Shown here piece by piece: positions 50,582 to 57,408 of a DNA stretch of 64,000 nucleotides. The notes under the pieces are model-generated. The model made no database searches. It was given only the letters and a program-made list of their open reading frames with translations, and was not told where the DNA came from. The first letter of the stretch is position 1. Each line of letters starts with the position of its first letter. The DNA is taken from NCBI GenBank assembly GCA_947425785.1, contig CANEAY010000003.1:62001-126000 (forward strand). Reading direction: 5' to 3'. The stretch is from an uncultured Pseudoflavonifractor sp. (lineage in GTDB: Bacteria; Bacillota; Clostridia; Oscillospirales; Oscillospiraceae). A program made the position numbers and the translations under genes.

Positions 50582-50610
50582 TTGACAAGCAGGCGAAGTT
50601 TGGATATAAT
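50582..50610 (+). promoter_or_regulatory. Promoter of the tRNA pair
   Basis: Perfect consensus: TTGACA at 50582-50587, 17-base spacer, TATAAT at 50605-50610, with transcription expected to start just before the tRNA. Confidence 0.9.
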
Positions 50611-50623
50611 AGCTTCTGCGTCT

Positions 50624-50700
50624 GGACGATTAGCTCAGCTGGTATGAGCATCCGCTTGACGTGCGGGAGGTCACAGGTTCAAGTCCTGTATCGTCCACCA
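50624..50700 (+). tRNA. tRNA-Val (GAC)
   Basis: Full cloverleaf of 77 bases including an encoded CCA: acceptor GGACGAT/ATCGTCC with discriminator A, D stem GCTC/GAGC, anticodon loop TTGACGT with GAC at 50658-50660, T stem ACAGG/CCTGT with loop TTCAAGT. Confidence 0.95.
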
Positions 50701-50864
50701 AAAAAGAAGCGCTGAGCACCGCCCTGTGAGGGAGCTTGGACTGCAGCGAAGCCGAGGGACAAGGCCGAATGGCCTTGGACACCAGGCTGAGGCGAAAGGA
50801 AAGCGACCGAACGACAGGGCAAGCGAAGCGTGACAAGTCAGCGCCGGGTCAAACCGGCCGACGT
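50701..50864 (+). other. Structured spacer between the two tRNA genes
   Basis: A 164-base purine-rich spacer with no convincing gene. It holds a hairpin CAAGGCC-gaat-GGCCTTG (50761-50778) and short CCGG pairs near 50845-50856. It is unusually long for a tRNA operon spacer; no terminator separates the two tRNAs. Confidence 0.4.
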
Positions 50865-50940
50865 GCGGGCGTAGCTCATCTGGTAGAGCGCCACCTTGCC
50901 AAGGTGGAGGTAGCGAGTTCGAGCCTCGTCGCCCGCTCCA
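50865..50940 (+). tRNA. tRNA-Gly (GCC)
   Basis: 76 bases with encoded CCA: acceptor GCGGGCG/CGCCCGC with discriminator T, D stem GCTC/GAGC, anticodon loop TTGCCAA with GCC at 50898-50900, T stem GCGAG/CTCGT with loop TTCGAGC. Confidence 0.95.
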
Positions 50941-51055: not shown

Positions 51056-52366
51056 TCAATCCGCCAGATTCTGGCAGTAGCGCATCAGAATAGTGGCCAC
51101 CTGGGCCCGGCTGGCTCTGCCGCCGGGGGCGATGGTGCCGTCTCCCATGCCGGAGATAAGGCCCACGCCCACCGCCCAGCGCAGGGGCTCCACCGCGTAG
51201 TCGGAGACGCTCCCCGCGTCCACAAAGCCGCCCAGGTCGCCCCGCACCGTGGTGTCCAGCCCCTTCTTGCCCGCGTAGCGGTAGAGGATGGCGGCCAGCT
51301 GCTCCCGGGTGATGGAGTCGTTGGGGCCGAAGCGGCCCTCCGCCCCCTCGCCGTAGCCGCTGACGATGCCGTTCTGGGACGCCCAGCCCACCGCGCCGGT
51401 GTAGTACTCGCCCACAGGCACGTCGGTAAAGCTGGACAGCTCCGCCTGGGGGGTGCCCTCCAGCCGGTGGAGGATGGTGACGATCATCCCCCGGGAGGTG
51501 TCCATATCCGGGGAGAACTGGTTCTCGTCGGTACCCTTCATCATGCCGCTTTCAAAGACATAGTGGACGGACTCATGGTACCAGTCGCTCTCCACCACGT
51601 CCCGGAAATTCATGTCGATGTGCTCCAGACCCGTCCAGTGGAAGGAGGCGGTGACCTCCACATCGGCGGCGGGCATGGTGAAGGTGAAGCGGTTCCCGCC
51701 CACGTCGGTGAGGGACATCTCCTTCCCCCTGGAGCTGGTGACCTTGAGCTTTTCCAGGGCGTAGCGGTTCTCCGGCTCCACGGTGAGGGTCACCATGGCC
51801 CGGGCCGCCGCCTGGGTCACATCCGCCTTCACCACCCCGTGCCGGGCGGAGGAGACCCGCACCCGGTAGCGGTCCGGCTCGTCGTCATCGTCGTCACTGC
51901 CGGCGCTCTGCTGCAGGCTGGTGGAGACCGCCGCGGCGTTGGCCCCGGAGATGGCCTCCAGCTCCCGGTTGAGGAGGGTCACCGTGACCGAGGAGGGCAT
52001 GGTGAAGGACTTGCTCACCGTCAGGGTGCCCAGGGGCAGCACCCCCTTTTCGTTCAGGGGCTTCTGGGCCGTCAGGTACACAATGACCCGGGTGCTCTTG
52101 TCGGAGCTCTCCACCCGGCAGTTGGGGCTGTATGTCTCCCCATCATCGGGAGAGAAGCTGGCCGTGACGCCACCCGGCAGGGTCAGCTCCAGCTGCACGC
52201 CGTAGACGCTCTCCTCCCCCAGCCCCTGAAGGGTGAGGGTGGCGGCATTGCCGCCGCTGTTCATCTGATAGGTCAGCCGCAGCTGGGCGGCAAAGGCGGG
52301 AACGGCCAGGCTCAAGACCAGAGCCAAAGTCAGTACAAGGGCGCTGAGGCGATTCCATTTTTTCAT
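51056..52366 (-). CDS. Surface protein with cohesin-like domain, beta-repeat domain and SLH anchor
   Basis: Exported 436-residue protein. The ATG (complement of 52364-52366) overlaps the stop of the M60 gene by four bases, so translation is coupled. Signal peptide 1-26 (ending PAFAA). Residues about 27-140 look like a cohesin fold: GEESVYGVQLELTLPGG, KSTRVIVYLTAQKPLNEKG and GTLTVSKSF... with alternating strands. An Asp-rich linker (about 152-158) precedes a bacterial repeat domain (about 160-235, ENRYALEKLKVTSSRGKE, FTMPAADVEVTASF). Three SLH repeats fill 245-430. The cohesin reading is inference from pattern; a generic carbohydrate-binding-like domain is the alternative. It could dock the dockerin-bearing enzyme encoded upstream. 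Confidence 0.75.
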   Translation of the reverse strand: MKKWNRLSALVLTLALVLSLAVPAFAAQLRLTYQMNSGGNAATLTLQGLGEESVYGVQLELTLPGGVTASFSPDDGETYSPNCRVESSDKSTRVIVYLTAQKPLNEKGVLPLGTLTVSKSFTMPSSVTVTLLNRELEAISGANAAAVSTSLQQSAGSDDDDDEPDRYRVRVSSARHGVVKADVTQAAARAMVTLTVEPENRYALEKLKVTSSRGKEMSLTDVGGNRFTFTMPAADVEVTASFHWTGLEHIDMNFRDVVESDWYHESVHYVFESGMMKGTDENQFSPDMDTSRGMIVTILHRLEGTPQAELSSFTDVPVGEYYTGAVGWASQNGIVSGYGEGAEGRFGPNDSITREQLAAILYRYAGKKGLDTTVRGDLGGFVDAGSVSDYAVEPLRWAVGVGLISGMGDGTIAPGGRASRAQVATILMRYCQNLAD

Positions 52367-55300
52367 TTGCCGCTCCCCCCTTCCAGCACCACCACAGGCA
52401 TATCCTCCTTGGTGCCGCCGGGGCTGCAGATCCAAAGGGTCTGGGCGGTGGTTCGCCGGCTGGAGGCGTCGTTGGGATCGTCGGTGCGGTAGAGGTTCAC
52501 CCGGATCTGGCTGGGCAGGAGGTTGGTGGCGTCACAGTGGGAGCTCTCCCCCTGGAGCTGGGCCTCCTGCTGCACGTCGGGCACAAAGAGGAAGATGCCG
52601 TCGCTGATGTCGCACACCGGGCCCTGCTCCGGCACCTCGGCGAAGAGGTAGGCGCTGCCCGACATGGGCCGCTCCACCACCTCGTTCTCAACGGCATCGC
52701 CGTTGGCGTCGATGGCGGTGGAAGTGTAGCGGCCCTCCACCGTCAGGGTGTTGTACACCGGATCGCCCCGGTAGGTGCCCAGGATCACCAGGGTGTCCTT
52801 GGGAATGACCTCGGTGACCGTGTTGCCGTTTTCGTCCAGGGCGGCGTAGCTGTAGTCCGCCGACAGCAGGCCCATGGTGGCCCCCTCCAGGAAGGCCACG
52901 TCATCGCCGGGATAGGTGATGAGCTTCACATTCTCCGGCCGGATGCCCGCCGGGATGCCGGTGATGGTCACGGTCTTGGCGTCGTAAGTCCAGATGCGGG
53001 TGTCGCTCTGGGCCGCCCCCGGCATCTTGAAATAGCTGACAAAGCTCTCCTTGTCGTCCACCGCCTGGTTCTGGTCGGCGGCGAAGGTGCCGGTGAGGGC
53101 GGTGGTCTCCTTGCCCTCCTTGTCGGTGACCACCACGGTATAGCTGCCGTTGTTGGCCGCCAGGTTCTGGATCTTCAGGCCGGAGACGGCGGTCTCCTTC
53201 TTCAGGGTGATGACCACCGAGCCGTTCTTCACAGCAATGTCATACTCCGAGGGATCCACGGTCTTGTCATAGGCCACCCGGACCTCCCCGGCGCCGGCGG
53301 TGCCGACCCGGCTGCCCAGGGTGTCGTAGGCCACCACCTCATAGTAATAGGTGCGGTGGTTGCCGGAGCCGATGATGTCGGTGTAGGTAACGCTCTTGCC
53401 GGAACCGGCGCTGACAAAGGCCACAGAAGCCCCGTTGCGGCGGATCTCATAGCCCTGAAGATCCCCCTTCACCCCGGAGGCGTCGATGGAAATGACGATC
53501 TCGTTGTCCTTCCCCGCCGCCATGGCCGCCGAAGCCTTCACCGTTCCGGCGGCCCCGCCGGTGCCCGCCAGGCGGTTCCGGCGGCTCTGGTCGTTCAGGT
53601 ACCAGACGGCCCGGCTCTCCGCCTGATAGCCCGCCAGGGTGGCCTTGGTCTTGTCGCTGAGGGTCATGCCCCAGCGGGTGAAGAACTCGGTCAAGTCCCG
53701 CTTGGCCACACCGGCGGCGGTGAGGGCCACCTTGTCGTCGTAGCTCTGGGCCCCGGCGGTATAGGTGCCCGCCTTCCAGGCTTTGAAGAACTTGTTGTAG
53801 AAGTCCAGGGGGGCGCCGCCGTCGTCATAGGCCAGGTGGAGCTGCCAGTAAAGGCCCAGCTGGGTGAACACGTCGTTGGAAGCGCCGGGGTAGCCCTGGG
53901 CCACCTTGGTAAATATCTGCTGGTACTTGCCGCTCTTCTCCAGCCGGGAGGCCAGGGTGTTCTCCTTGCCGTCCCAGGTCTGCACCATGATGGAGTAGAT
54001 GTTGTTGGTGATCTCGGCCTTGCCCAGCTTGTCCATGTTGTGGCCGATCTCGTGGGCAATGCCCCAGCCGAAGAGCTGGTTGGCCCCGGCCCCGTCGGCC
54101 ATCTTGGCGATGGGCCTGCCGGTGGCCATGCCGCCGCAGGAACCGTAGCCGATGCCGATGTGGCTCCCGGCGGCGTACATAAAGGCCCCGGCAAACATGG
54201 TCATGCAGCGGATATTCTGGCGGGAGACCATGTCGTTGTTCCCGTAGACATTGTCGATGCCCTGGGTCTGCTTGCAGATGGCCATGATATCCTCCCAGGC
54301 CAGGATATCGTCATAGAGGGCCTGCACCTTGTCCTCCCGGCTCCCCGCCCCCAGGGCGTTCTTCACCGGCAGGGCGGCCAGGGACAGGAGCACCACAGGG
54401 GTGGAGATCTCCGTCACATTGCGGTAGTCGCTGGTGGGACTTCCGATGGTCATGCCGCCCAGATAAGCGGTAAGCTCATCCACATAGGCCCCGATGACCT
54501 CCCGGCGGGCGGCCTCATCCAGGCTGTACCAATGGGCCAGCTCCAGAACAGGGATATCCACCCCCCGGCGGACGTGGAGCCTGATGTTGGCCCCGTTCTG
54601 GCCGCTGTAGGTGACATAGAGGCTGCCGCCGTTGTTGCCCGCCCGGCTGCCGATCTTGGGAATGGTGATGATGTTGCGGCCGTTCTCCAGAGTGCCCAAA
54701 GAGGTCTGCCAGGCGGAGACCTCGGCGTTGAACTGGGTGGCCCGGAGCTCCACCTTCTCTCCGGCGGGGATGCCCTGGGCGTAAATGGTGATCTCCCGGC
54801 CCGCCCCGGCGGTGACGCCCAGGGGCTGGAGGTCGCTGCCGGCCTGACCGTATCTGGCGCTGTCCGCGCCGTTGCTGCGGCTGTCCAGGCCGTTCAGGAT
54901 AACGCCCTGGCTGGCCCCCTGCTCCAGCAGCTCCTGGGCCAGGGTCAGCTCATCGGCCAGGGTGTCCAGATTCAGATAATAGTTGCGCTCGTCCCCAGAA
55001 AGGCGGGTGCGCAGGGCCTCGATCTGCTCCAGGGTGACCCCCTGGGCCAGCTGGGTGTGGAGCTCGTCGGCAAAGAGGGCGCCGATCTCCCCCGGCAGGC
55101 TGTGGGCCGGATCATATTCCATGAACATCAGCTCGGAAAGGCTGACGGTGAGGTAATCCCTCTGCTCCGCCGCAAGGCTGACCTTGACCACTTTTTCCGC
55201 CGGGCCGAAGGGCAGGATGGCGAAGTTGGTCACAGCGCAGTTGCCCCGGAGGCTGGGCCAGGTGTCCACATCCCGGCCGGTGCCGCCGTTGTCCACGCCC

Positions 55301-57309
55301 CCGTTCTTGGGGTCGGGGACGATGAGGTGCCCGGCGCCCTTCAAGTCCTCTCCCTCATACCAGACCCGGACGCTGTAAGCCCGCAGGTTGGTGGGGTAGG
55401 TGCCGTCCAGCCGGGGCACCCAGATGGCGGCGGACAGGTCCACCGGCTCCTTGAAGGTGACCTCCACGTGCTCGTTGCTCCACCAGTTCTTGGCCGTCCA
55501 GGCGGTGCGGTAGTTGTTGTCGATCATATCCTGGAAGGTAAAGGTGCCGGTGTGGTTGGTGGCGTCAGCCAGGCGGATATCGCTGATCTTGCCGCTATCC
55601 AGGATGCCCAGGGTGGGGATCCCCTCCGGCCGCTCGTACTTCACTTCCTTGGGGGTACCCTCATAGATGGCGGAACGGGGGCCCTTGCCCACGTCGTTGC
55701 CCGCCACCACATAGATGGAGTAGGTCACGCCGTTCTCCAGGCCCTGGATGGTGGTGCTGGCCTGCTTGAGCTGGCCTCCCGCCTGGAGCCAGGAGTCCGC
55801 CCCCTTGACCTGATAGTAGACCTCATAATACTTGGCGGACTTGCCCTCCTTCCAGGACACGCCCAGGGCGTTCTCCAGGTTGGTGACATTCACCATGTCC
55901 ACCTTGTCGGGAACGCTGGCGGGCCGGGGGGTCGCGGAACAGGGGTCGGAGGGCTTGCCCTCCCAGGTGCCGTCGGTGGCGGTGACGGTAAAGACATAGG
56001 TCTCGTTGTTCTCCAGGCCGGAGACCTTGGCCCGGGTCACGTCGGTGTGGAGCTCCTTGACCTGGGCGGCCTTCTGCTCCGGCCAGTAGAGCACCTTATA
56101 GCCGGACACGTTGGGCAGGGCGTTCCAGGTCAGGGTCACCATCTCGCTGCCCTCTTCCGCGCCCAGGCCCTTGACCTGGATGTTGGGGGCCACAGGCACT
56201 TCGGGGACGATGTCCTGGAGGAACTGAACGGCCTGGACGGCGGCATAGCCGCCCTCGGTCTTGGTCACGGTGACGGTGATCTTCTTCACCGGGATGCGCC
56301 GGCCCAGGTCGATGGTGATGACGTTGCTGCCGGGAACATTGGAAATGGCGTGGGCGCCGGCGGGGGGCGTGATGTCAAAAGCGCGCTCCTCCAGCTCGCC
56401 GTTGGCTCCCTCCACCTTCACAGTGCCGGCCAGCACGGCTCCCTCCCCCGCGGAGGAGAGGATGTCGATGGCCTGGGTATCCACCGTCTCGGAAAGGGGC
56501 AGGGGCACAACGATGTCCCCTTCAGCGCGGAAGGTGACGGTCTGCCCGTTGTCGGCGAAGATGTCCGCCAGCTCGCCCGTGGCCACGGTGCCCTCTGCCG
56601 CCAGCTCGGCGGCAATGGCGTCCAGATTGGCGGCCACCGTGATGCGGGCCGTCTCCCGCAGAACGGACTTGCCCTCGGCGTGGATGAGCCGGTCCACGTA
56701 GGCCAGATCAACGATGTCGATGGCCCCGTCCCCGTTCAGGTCGTACTGATAGAGCTCCTCCGGCCGGTGGGAGCCCAGCACGGCAGCCATGGCGGTGCGG
56801 TCGGCCTCATTCACCGCCCCGTCCCCGTTCACGTCGCCCAGGGTAAAGGTGGCGTCGCCGGTGCCTACCACCACGTGGCGGGAGTAGTCCCGCAGTTCAA
56901 TATCCTTCTCTGTATAGGAGGTATAGCCCCGGCCGGAGAAGACCAGGGAGTAGCTTCCCTGGGGCAGGCCCTCAAAGGCCACCTCCAAAAAGCCGGGCCA
57001 CTGGCCGCCGCCCAGCTCGCCCCCGTCCACCCCCTTGGGGGTGACGGTAGCCTGGCAGCCGCCCACGTTCTGGACGCCCGCCCGGGTCAGGGCCACGGTG
57101 CCCAGAGTGGCGCCGCCCTTCTGCAGCTCCACCTGCAATCCCCGGTCGGCCAGCTCATCCAGCCGCTGGGCGTAGTCGATGCGCACCGCGGTGGTAAGAC
57201 TGCCCGTCACACCCTCATCCGCGGCCAGGGCCGTGGTGGGGATGTAGAGGGAACACATCATGGCTGCGGCCAGCAGGGCCGACAGCATCCTCTTTTTTCC
57301 GTTTCTCAT
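52363..57309 (-). CDS. Secreted M60-family (mucin-type) metallopeptidase with dockerin and Fn3 domains
   Basis: Exported protease of 1648 residues. Signal peptide 1-29. Residues about 158-212 are a dockerin type I: loops DVNGDGAVNEAD (159-170) and DLNGDGAIDIVD (190-201), each with all calcium ligands. Two fibronectin type III domains follow (about 380-475 and 480-570), then a discoidin-like region (about 590-750, DNNYRTAWTAKNWW). The M60 domain has the zinc motif HEIGH at 1086-1090 and the third ligand Glu1099 in AEITNNIY. C-terminal beta domains and a tail complete it. M60 enzymes cleave O-glycoproteins such as mucins. It is first in an operon with the SLH protein. Confidence 0.9.
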   Translation of the reverse strand: MRNGKKRMLSALLAAAMMCSLYIPTTALAADEGVTGSLTTAVRIDYAQRLDELADRGLQVELQKGGATLGTVALTRAGVQNVGGCQATVTPKGVDGGELGGGQWPGFLEVAFEGLPQGSYSLVFSGRGYTSYTEKDIELRDYSRHVVVGTGDATFTLGDVNGDGAVNEADRTAMAAVLGSHRPEELYQYDLNGDGAIDIVDLAYVDRLIHAEGKSVLRETARITVAANLDAIAAELAAEGTVATGELADIFADNGQTVTFRAEGDIVVPLPLSETVDTQAIDILSSAGEGAVLAGTVKVEGANGELEERAFDITPPAGAHAISNVPGSNVITIDLGRRIPVKKITVTVTKTEGGYAAVQAVQFLQDIVPEVPVAPNIQVKGLGAEEGSEMVTLTWNALPNVSGYKVLYWPEQKAAQVKELHTDVTRAKVSGLENNETYVFTVTATDGTWEGKPSDPCSATPRPASVPDKVDMVNVTNLENALGVSWKEGKSAKYYEVYYQVKGADSWLQAGGQLKQASTTIQGLENGVTYSIYVVAGNDVGKGPRSAIYEGTPKEVKYERPEGIPTLGILDSGKISDIRLADATNHTGTFTFQDMIDNNYRTAWTAKNWWSNEHVEVTFKEPVDLSAAIWVPRLDGTYPTNLRAYSVRVWYEGEDLKGAGHLIVPDPKNGGVDNGGTGRDVDTWPSLRGNCAVTNFAILPFGPAEKVVKVSLAAEQRDYLTVSLSELMFMEYDPAHSLPGEIGALFADELHTQLAQGVTLEQIEALRTRLSGDERNYYLNLDTLADELTLAQELLEQGASQGVILNGLDSRSNGADSARYGQAGSDLQPLGVTAGAGREITIYAQGIPAGEKVELRATQFNAEVSAWQTSLGTLENGRNIITIPKIGSRAGNNGGSLYVTYSGQNGANIRLHVRRGVDIPVLELAHWYSLDEAARREVIGAYVDELTAYLGGMTIGSPTSDYRNVTEISTPVVLLSLAALPVKNALGAGSREDKVQALYDDILAWEDIMAICKQTQGIDNVYGNNDMVSRQNIRCMTMFAGAFMYAAGSHIGIGYGSCGGMATGRPIAKMADGAGANQLFGWGIAHEIGHNMDKLGKAEITNNIYSIMVQTWDGKENTLASRLEKSGKYQQIFTKVAQGYPGASNDVFTQLGLYWQLHLAYDDGGAPLDFYNKFFKAWKAGTYTAGAQSYDDKVALTAAGVAKRDLTEFFTRWGMTLSDKTKATLAGYQAESRAVWYLNDQSRRNRLAGTGGAAGTVKASAAMAAGKDNEIVISIDASGVKGDLQGYEIRRNGASVAFVSAGSGKSVTYTDIIGSGNHRTYYYEVVAYDTLGSRVGTAGAGEVRVAYDKTVDPSEYDIAVKNGSVVITLKKETAVSGLKIQNLAANNGSYTVVVTDKEGKETTALTGTFAADQNQAVDDKESFVSYFKMPGAAQSDTRIWTYDAKTVTITGIPAGIRPENVKLITYPGDDVAFLEGATMGLLSADYSYAALDENGNTVTEVIPKDTLVILGTYRGDPVYNTLTVEGRYTSTAIDANGDAVENEVVERPMSGSAYLFAEVPEQGPVCDISDGIFLFVPDVQQEAQLQGESSHCDATNLLPSQIRVNLYRTDDPNDASSRRTTAQTLWICSPGGTKEDMPVVVLEGGSGK

Positions 57310-57379: not shown

Positions 57380-57408
57380 ATTATAGCAATTCCCCCGACG
57401 TTTGACAA
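57380..57408 (-). promoter_or_regulatory. Promoter of the M60/SLH operon
   Basis: On the minus strand: -35 TTGTCA (complement of 57403-57408), 17-base spacer, perfect -10 TATAAT (complement of 57380-57385), about 70 bases before the start. Confidence 0.75.

Follow-up and report, generated by a model that had tools for sequence, protein, structure and literature searches.

In Clostridium thermocellum, the X-dockerin of CipA is anchored through type II cohesins which are carried by SLH proteins such as SdbA. RflaF_05439 of Ruminococcus flavefaciens, a peptidase-like protein with an X-dockerin, is held at the wall by the cohesin of the sortase-anchored ScaE, a binding cited as unpublished results in PMC3573020, and an X-dockerin peptidase-like protein of this species is also mentioned in PMC12484212. 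The genome screen for mucinolysomes demanded a Pfam cohesin plus a dockerin (PMC12997984), and a survey of 415 M60-like/PF13402 proteins found a dockerin in two of them and SLH in one (PMC3267712). In this work we have analysed a stretch of 64,000 nucleotides from an uncultured Pseudoflavonifractor sp. (the window, to which all positions without a locus name refer) and, within it, two adjoining genes. The first encodes P0002, an M60 peptidase with an N-terminal X-module-dockerin dyad, and the second P0001, an SLH protein whose N-terminal domain we call NT. We consider it likely that these genes form a one-enzyme, one-socket surface display pair in which the X-dockerin of the enzyme is the plug and NT the socket. 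The earlier note on this DNA had proposed a one-enzyme, one-anchor system of the cellulosome kind aimed at glycoproteins, and this overall interpretation is supported by our results. No description of the gene pair was found in the literature searched, the scope of which excluded preprints and most subscription journals.

Both genes lie on the minus strand, and on re-reading of the frames the coordinates and the four-base overlap reported earlier hold: the stop of the protease gene and the start of the anchor gene share ATGA, with the anchor gene directly downstream. The features of the pair are the following.

52363..57309, minus strand: gene of the X-dockerin M60 protease P0002, read from 57309 to 52363, 1648 amino acids (frame and domain matches)
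57220..57309, minus strand: putative signal peptide region of the protease, residues 1-30 (by eye)
56860..57219, minus strand: X-module, residues 31-150, a beta-sandwich ahead of the dockerin (predicted fold)
56686..56841, minus strand: dockerin, residues 157-208, with two intact calcium loops (Pfam and loop pattern)
55630..56172, minus strand: two fibronectin type III domains, about residues 380-560 (domain match)
55345..55560, minus strand: F5/8 type C (CBM32-like) domain, residues 584-655, a weak domain match under the Pfam cut-off
53668..54300, minus strand: Peptidase_M60 catalytic domain, residues 1004-1214 (Pfam and solved relatives)
54013..54054, minus strand: zinc site, HEIGH (residues 1086-1090) and E1099 (alignment of proteases)
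52363..52366, minus strand: ATGA start/stop overlap (read from the sequence)
51056..52366, minus strand: gene of the anchor and putative socket protein P0001, from the ATG at 52366 to 51056, 436 amino acids (frame and domain matches)
52286..52366, minus strand: putative signal peptide region of the anchor, residues 1-27 (by eye)
51920..52285, minus strand: cohesin-fold domain NT, residues 28-149 (predicted fold)
51638..51868, minus strand: Flg_new_2 (InlB B-repeat-like) domain, residues 167-243, absent from some relatives (domain match)
51065..51613, minus strand: three SLH domains, about residues 252-434, the cell-wall anchor (domain match)
57380..57408, minus strand: promoter-like site TTGTCA-17-TATAAT with TG, 5' of the protease gene (consensus match only)

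Dockerin_1 (PF00404) matches residues 157-208 of P0002 with E 1.4e-8 and 35.3 bits (cut-off 22.9), and both calcium loops (DVNGDGAVNEAD and DLNGDGAIDIVD) were found, so that the two-loop dockerin which the earlier note had read near the N-terminus of the protease is indeed intact. The predicted fold of the X-module and dockerin matches that of type II X-module-dockerin dyads (PDB 2b59, 5k39, 5g5d); on this model the dockerin is part of a dyad like those which attach cellulosomes to the cell. Peptidase_M60 matches residues 1004-1214 (E 8.8e-20). The intact HEIGH...E zinc site described before is borne out as well, since H1086, E1087, G1089, H1090 and E1099 are invariant across 17 aligned protease relatives. 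Among the solved structures closest to P0002 by sequence are 7jfs (deposited as an F5/8 type C domain protein, E 2e-27) and the ZmpC glycopeptidase 6xsz (E 1.7e-21), and P0002 would be expected from its sequence to cleave O-glycosylated proteins such as mucin. P0001 carries three SLH domains (E 1.9e-25) and, by eye, an export signal, and a profile search of the host genome found a gene for CsaB (245.8 bits, cut-off 213.1); these features mark P0001, as far as domain matches tell, as an SLH-anchored wall protein. Neither product matched above cut-off in the NCBIfam scan.

The pair recurs in many genomes. Our first set consisted of 80 named loci, the best 80 of 300 relatives picked by similarity to dockerin-bearing proteases. 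A dockerin is present in all 78 loci in which the 5' part of the protease gene is in view (it is cut in L158 and L162), and NT is present in the next gene in all 76 in which that gene is in view (L114, L163, L164 and L187 end early; all were checked by hand). SLH also occurs in 75 of these 76, L184 being cut by the contig end. The hand check placed NT of L125 in an extended frame and showed the proteases of L123 and L161 to be split. Recurrence on this scale rules out a chance motif. Because the loci were picked by protease similarity, they provide no test of the association between M60 and dockerin, for which the genome searches with NT, M60 and X-dockerin serve instead; in view of these we also reject the idea that the recurrence is an artefact of picking loci by their protease. 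At least 12 contigs of the family-genome loci described next agree in length with contigs of the named loci, so that the two sets overlap and their counts are not additive.

The NT profile found one copy in each of 23 out of 200 genomes of the host's family, from 15 genera, and an M60 gene lies directly upstream in all 23. A dockerin was seen in 21 of these. The two exceptions are G050, where the contig ends within the gene, and G118, whose locus (L194) has both its protease and its anchor gene broken and yielded no dockerin. M60 itself occurs in 27 of the 200 genomes, namely the 23 with NT, G180 (its partner gene being split across a contig break), G077, G152 and G156. The M60 chain of G156 has no dockerin, and no NT was found in this genome; nor was NT detected by its profile in G077 and G152 (L197, L198). 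In both of the latter genomes, the M60 protease has SLH in the same chain and keeps a dockerin-like module. With the X-dockerin profile, 46 of the 200 family genomes match at E<=1e-4 and 22 at E<1e-30; the 22 strong ones are all NT genomes or G180, and the remaining matches are far weaker. Pfam dockerins (E<=1e-4) number exactly one in 18 of the 23 NT genomes, six in G070, five in G147 and none in G050, G071 and G118. In the family as a whole, dockerins are found in 87 of the 200 genomes as against 23 for NT. X-like dockerin proteins without M60 also exist, for example at five places in G336. At L253 in that genome, large genes lie clustered which combine an X-like module with a dockerin and lack M60, and one of them also has SLH.

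Searches beyond the family gave the same picture. In 391 genomes of the class the NT profile had ten matches, the window's own and nine in six other families, and each of these nine has an M60 gene directly upstream. The X-dockerin profile matches eight of the nine proteases (only the X-module part in L245), the region of L241 being lost to a contig cut. In the reverse direction, this profile found ten out-of-family proteins at E<1e-18 in 341 class genomes. All nine examined proved to be M60 proteases followed by a gene with NT, and the tenth is in G381, where an M60 tail and NT lie on another contig. In G348 and G498 NT has diverged (E 5.6e-9 and 4.5e-6, respectively, when searched in a small local set), and the NT profile search of the class genomes had missed both copies. 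Pfam cohesins are present in two out-of-family pair genomes, G348 and G392. At the level of genes, the pairing of protease and anchor put forward in the earlier note is thus upheld by the constant position of M60 upstream of NT, by the reverse X-dockerin search and by the exchange of anchors considered below.

The earlier note had also suggested a look for other dockerin proteins in the genome. At E<=1 the dockerin of P0002 is the only one in the host genome (1.96 Mb, 93% complete), Pfam cohesin has no match at the same threshold, and NT is present as a single copy. One dockerin, one NT and no Pfam cohesin rule out a full cellulosome or mucinolysome with a scaffoldin, several cohesins and several dockerin enzymes. 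Single copies, adjoining and overlapping, fit a dedicated pair. Among named records, the nearest come from uncultured Pseudoflavonifractor and other Oscillospiraceae, and names of this kind make it likely that the host is a gut bacterium. In the surroundings of the pair, genes for tRNA-Val and tRNA-Gly lie on the plus strand at 50582-50940, convergent with the end of the pair, and a 12/12 promoter match at 50582-50610 stands immediately ahead of them.

The anchor which carries NT is exchangeable. In 11 loci outside the family (L240-L250, from seven families) NT is constant and the wall anchor varies: the NT protein bears SLH in L240-L244, three stretches of CWB2 in L247 (E 1.8e-49) and an LPKTG sorting signal in L250 (PF00746, 22.4 bits against 20). 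Those of L245 and L248 have, by eye, NPSTG and NPGTG tails, respectively, with a hydrophobic stretch and a basic end; PF00746 stays under its cut-off in L245 and has no match in L248. No wall anchor was recognised in Pfam for the NT proteins of about 370 residues at L246:10651-11763 and L249:2665-3774, which may carry a further type of anchor. Inside the family, L105-L108 lack Flg_new_2 and retain NT and SLH. At L252:873-7154 (G460), a single chain of 2093 residues has a dockerin and M60 together with an NT-like stretch close to its end, the last being a weak match (E 1e-4 with an enlarged profile). No separate NT gene adjoins this dockerin-bearing M60, and the chain may unite plug, enzyme and socket as a natural fusion protein. 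Could the two genes be merely co-transcribed and co-inherited, with products that make no contact and an SLH protein that is one of many wall proteins? The host genome has 107 SLH matches at E<=0.01, and adjacency by itself does not prove contact. Yet NT stays constant whether the anchor is of SLH, CWB2 or sortase type, each genome has a single copy which, among the profile matches, adjoins this protease only, and the divergence of NT follows that of the protease more than that of the SLH part of the same protein, as described below; we therefore regard the absence of contact as very improbable. Some of the SLH matches of the host belong to open frames that run to about 6000 residues.

The model of NT was built on an alignment of the window's sequence with 72 of the 76 NT stretches from the named loci (one was dropped for an unknown residue and three for redundancy). 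It shows a nine-stranded cohesin fold, with which the CBM2 fold tied in structure comparison; the best fold match in VIA was to the non-cellulosomal cohesins of Clostridium perfringens (X82 modules). In sequence, no cohesin (PF00963) was matched by 18 NT sequences in a Pfam scan at E<=10, nor by P0001, and hhalign profile-profile comparison of NT with 27 cohesins gave no significant match. A PDB profile search with NT returned chance matches only, and a search of viral structures nothing at E<=1e-3. The earlier note had called the first domain of the SLH protein cohesin-like and had proposed structure prediction as a check. The domain does model as a cohesin fold, with the CBM2 tie, whereas sequence similarity to cohesins is lacking in Pfam and hhalign; a fair wording for NT is cohesin-like by predicted fold and outside Pfam Cohesin by sequence.

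Cohesins bind dockerins with the face made up of strands 8-3-6-5. With strands taken from the NT model, and inward or outward orientation from hydrophobic alternation and not from coordinates, the outward residues of strands 3, 5, 6 and 8 are better conserved (0.476, n=16) than the rest (0.325, n=17; Mann-Whitney p 0.0075), the highest being Q58 and Y97. Two residues of strand 7, G113 and L115, which belong to the comparison group, are also highly conserved, the alternation of this strand being ambiguous. These results bear on the possibility that NT is a carbohydrate-binding module of CBM2 fold, the SLH protein being a mucin-binding adhesin beside a secreted protease, and the dockerin binding some other target or nothing. 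The tie in fold comparison counts in favour of this explanation. CBM2 domains bind through exposed tryptophans, but tryptophan occurs in only 25 of 73 NT sequences, and the best conserved outward residues of the face are Gln and Tyr. The alignments of NT with cohesins in VIA are longer (112 residues) and top-scoring. Moreover, NT adjoins M60 in 32 of 32 profile matches, with a dockerin wherever one can be viewed, the broken G118 excepted. We consider a CBM2-type adhesin unlikely.

Distances were compared over 83 gene pairs, 73 from the named loci, the window's and 9 others. The rank correlation of NT is highest with the X-module (0.84, bootstrap range 0.81-0.86), followed by M60 (0.75) and the dockerin (0.62), and falls to 0.28 (0.16-0.40) with the SLH part of its own protein, a weak correlation that is above chance (Mantel p 0.005). 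In partial correlation the X-module again leads (0.44), ahead of F5/8C (0.29) and the dockerin (0.11), which ties NT to the protease and not to the dockerin as such. This pattern speaks for an alternative in which the dockerin is secondary and NT, as a dedicated receptor, inhibitor or chaperone of the protease, binds that enzyme by its X-module or by some other part. On the other hand, the dockerin is short and its distances are noisy, and in solved type II complexes the X-module acts as a dyad with the dockerin. Nor is there a general decay of the dockerin: in the X-dockerin alignment (the window and 74 of 78 stretches from the named loci, four left out), a strict pattern finds two calcium loops in 45 of 75, one in 27 and none in 3. 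We give this alternative a low probability.

What our computations establish is the order of the genes, the identity of the domains, the predicted folds, the conservation and the co-occurrence. A one-enzyme, one-socket display pair would work as follows. The M60 peptidase would be exported with its X-module-dockerin plug at the N-terminus, and the anchor protein would be fixed to the wall through its SLH domains, which probably bind pyruvylated wall polymer, presenting NT as a single socket. Calcium-dependent docking of the plug into NT, a binding that we infer, would then hold a mucin-type O-glycopeptidase on the cell, so that it would act at the surface on O-glycosylated proteins, presumably host proteins such as mucin. 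We find it evenly balanced whether NT is the founder of a separate class of cohesins to which standard profiles are blind, a portable socket moved between SLH, CWB2 and sortase anchors across Clostridia that is dedicated to one M60 peptidase. If it is, hidden sockets may also exist for other orphan dockerins whose genomes lack Pfam cohesins. The pair would explain how a recurring group of mucin-type peptidases stays on the cell, it would show the cohesin-dockerin principle reduced to one enzyme and one socket, and it would mean that screens which require a Pfam cohesin can overlook such systems. With the socket constant and the wall anchor of three kinds, the loci would also offer a natural series in which to study how specific plug and socket are for each other, and one of use for surface display in anaerobes.

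Compared with type II anchoring of cellulosomes, the locus shares an X-module-dockerin dyad of matching predicted fold and a cohesin-fold domain on an SLH protein. It differs in that the dyad, which in type II anchoring sits on a scaffoldin for many enzymes, is here on the enzyme itself, and in that the NT socket has no detectable sequence similarity to cohesins. As for RflaF_05439 and ScaE, an X-dockerin on a peptidase-like protein meets a wall-borne socket, but RflaF_05439 is of NlpC/P60 type and part of a full cellulosome, and ScaE is shared, with no dedicated two-gene pair in the parts covered of PMC3573020. P0002 shares its catalytic family with the M60-like/PF13402 proteins of PMC3267712, in the covered parts of which no dockerin partner is shown; a figure legend there notes that the displayed Clostridium and Bacillus proteins are without evident surface anchor. 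The X82 cohesins of C. perfringens, the best VIA fold match of NT, are likewise single modules in their proteins, yet all five of these cohesin proteins also have a glycoside hydrolase domain (PMC12997984), whereas the socket described here is on a non-catalytic wall anchor. The Limousia mucinolysome (PMC12997984) is similar in being a cohesin-dockerin mucin system of gut Firmicutes in which peptidases bear dockerins and a scaffoldin has a sortase motif, but it is a multi-enzyme complex with tandem cohesins. Since the mucinolysome screen, as far as the covered parts of that paper go, needs a Pfam cohesin together with a dockerin, a genome like that of our host would have been passed over.

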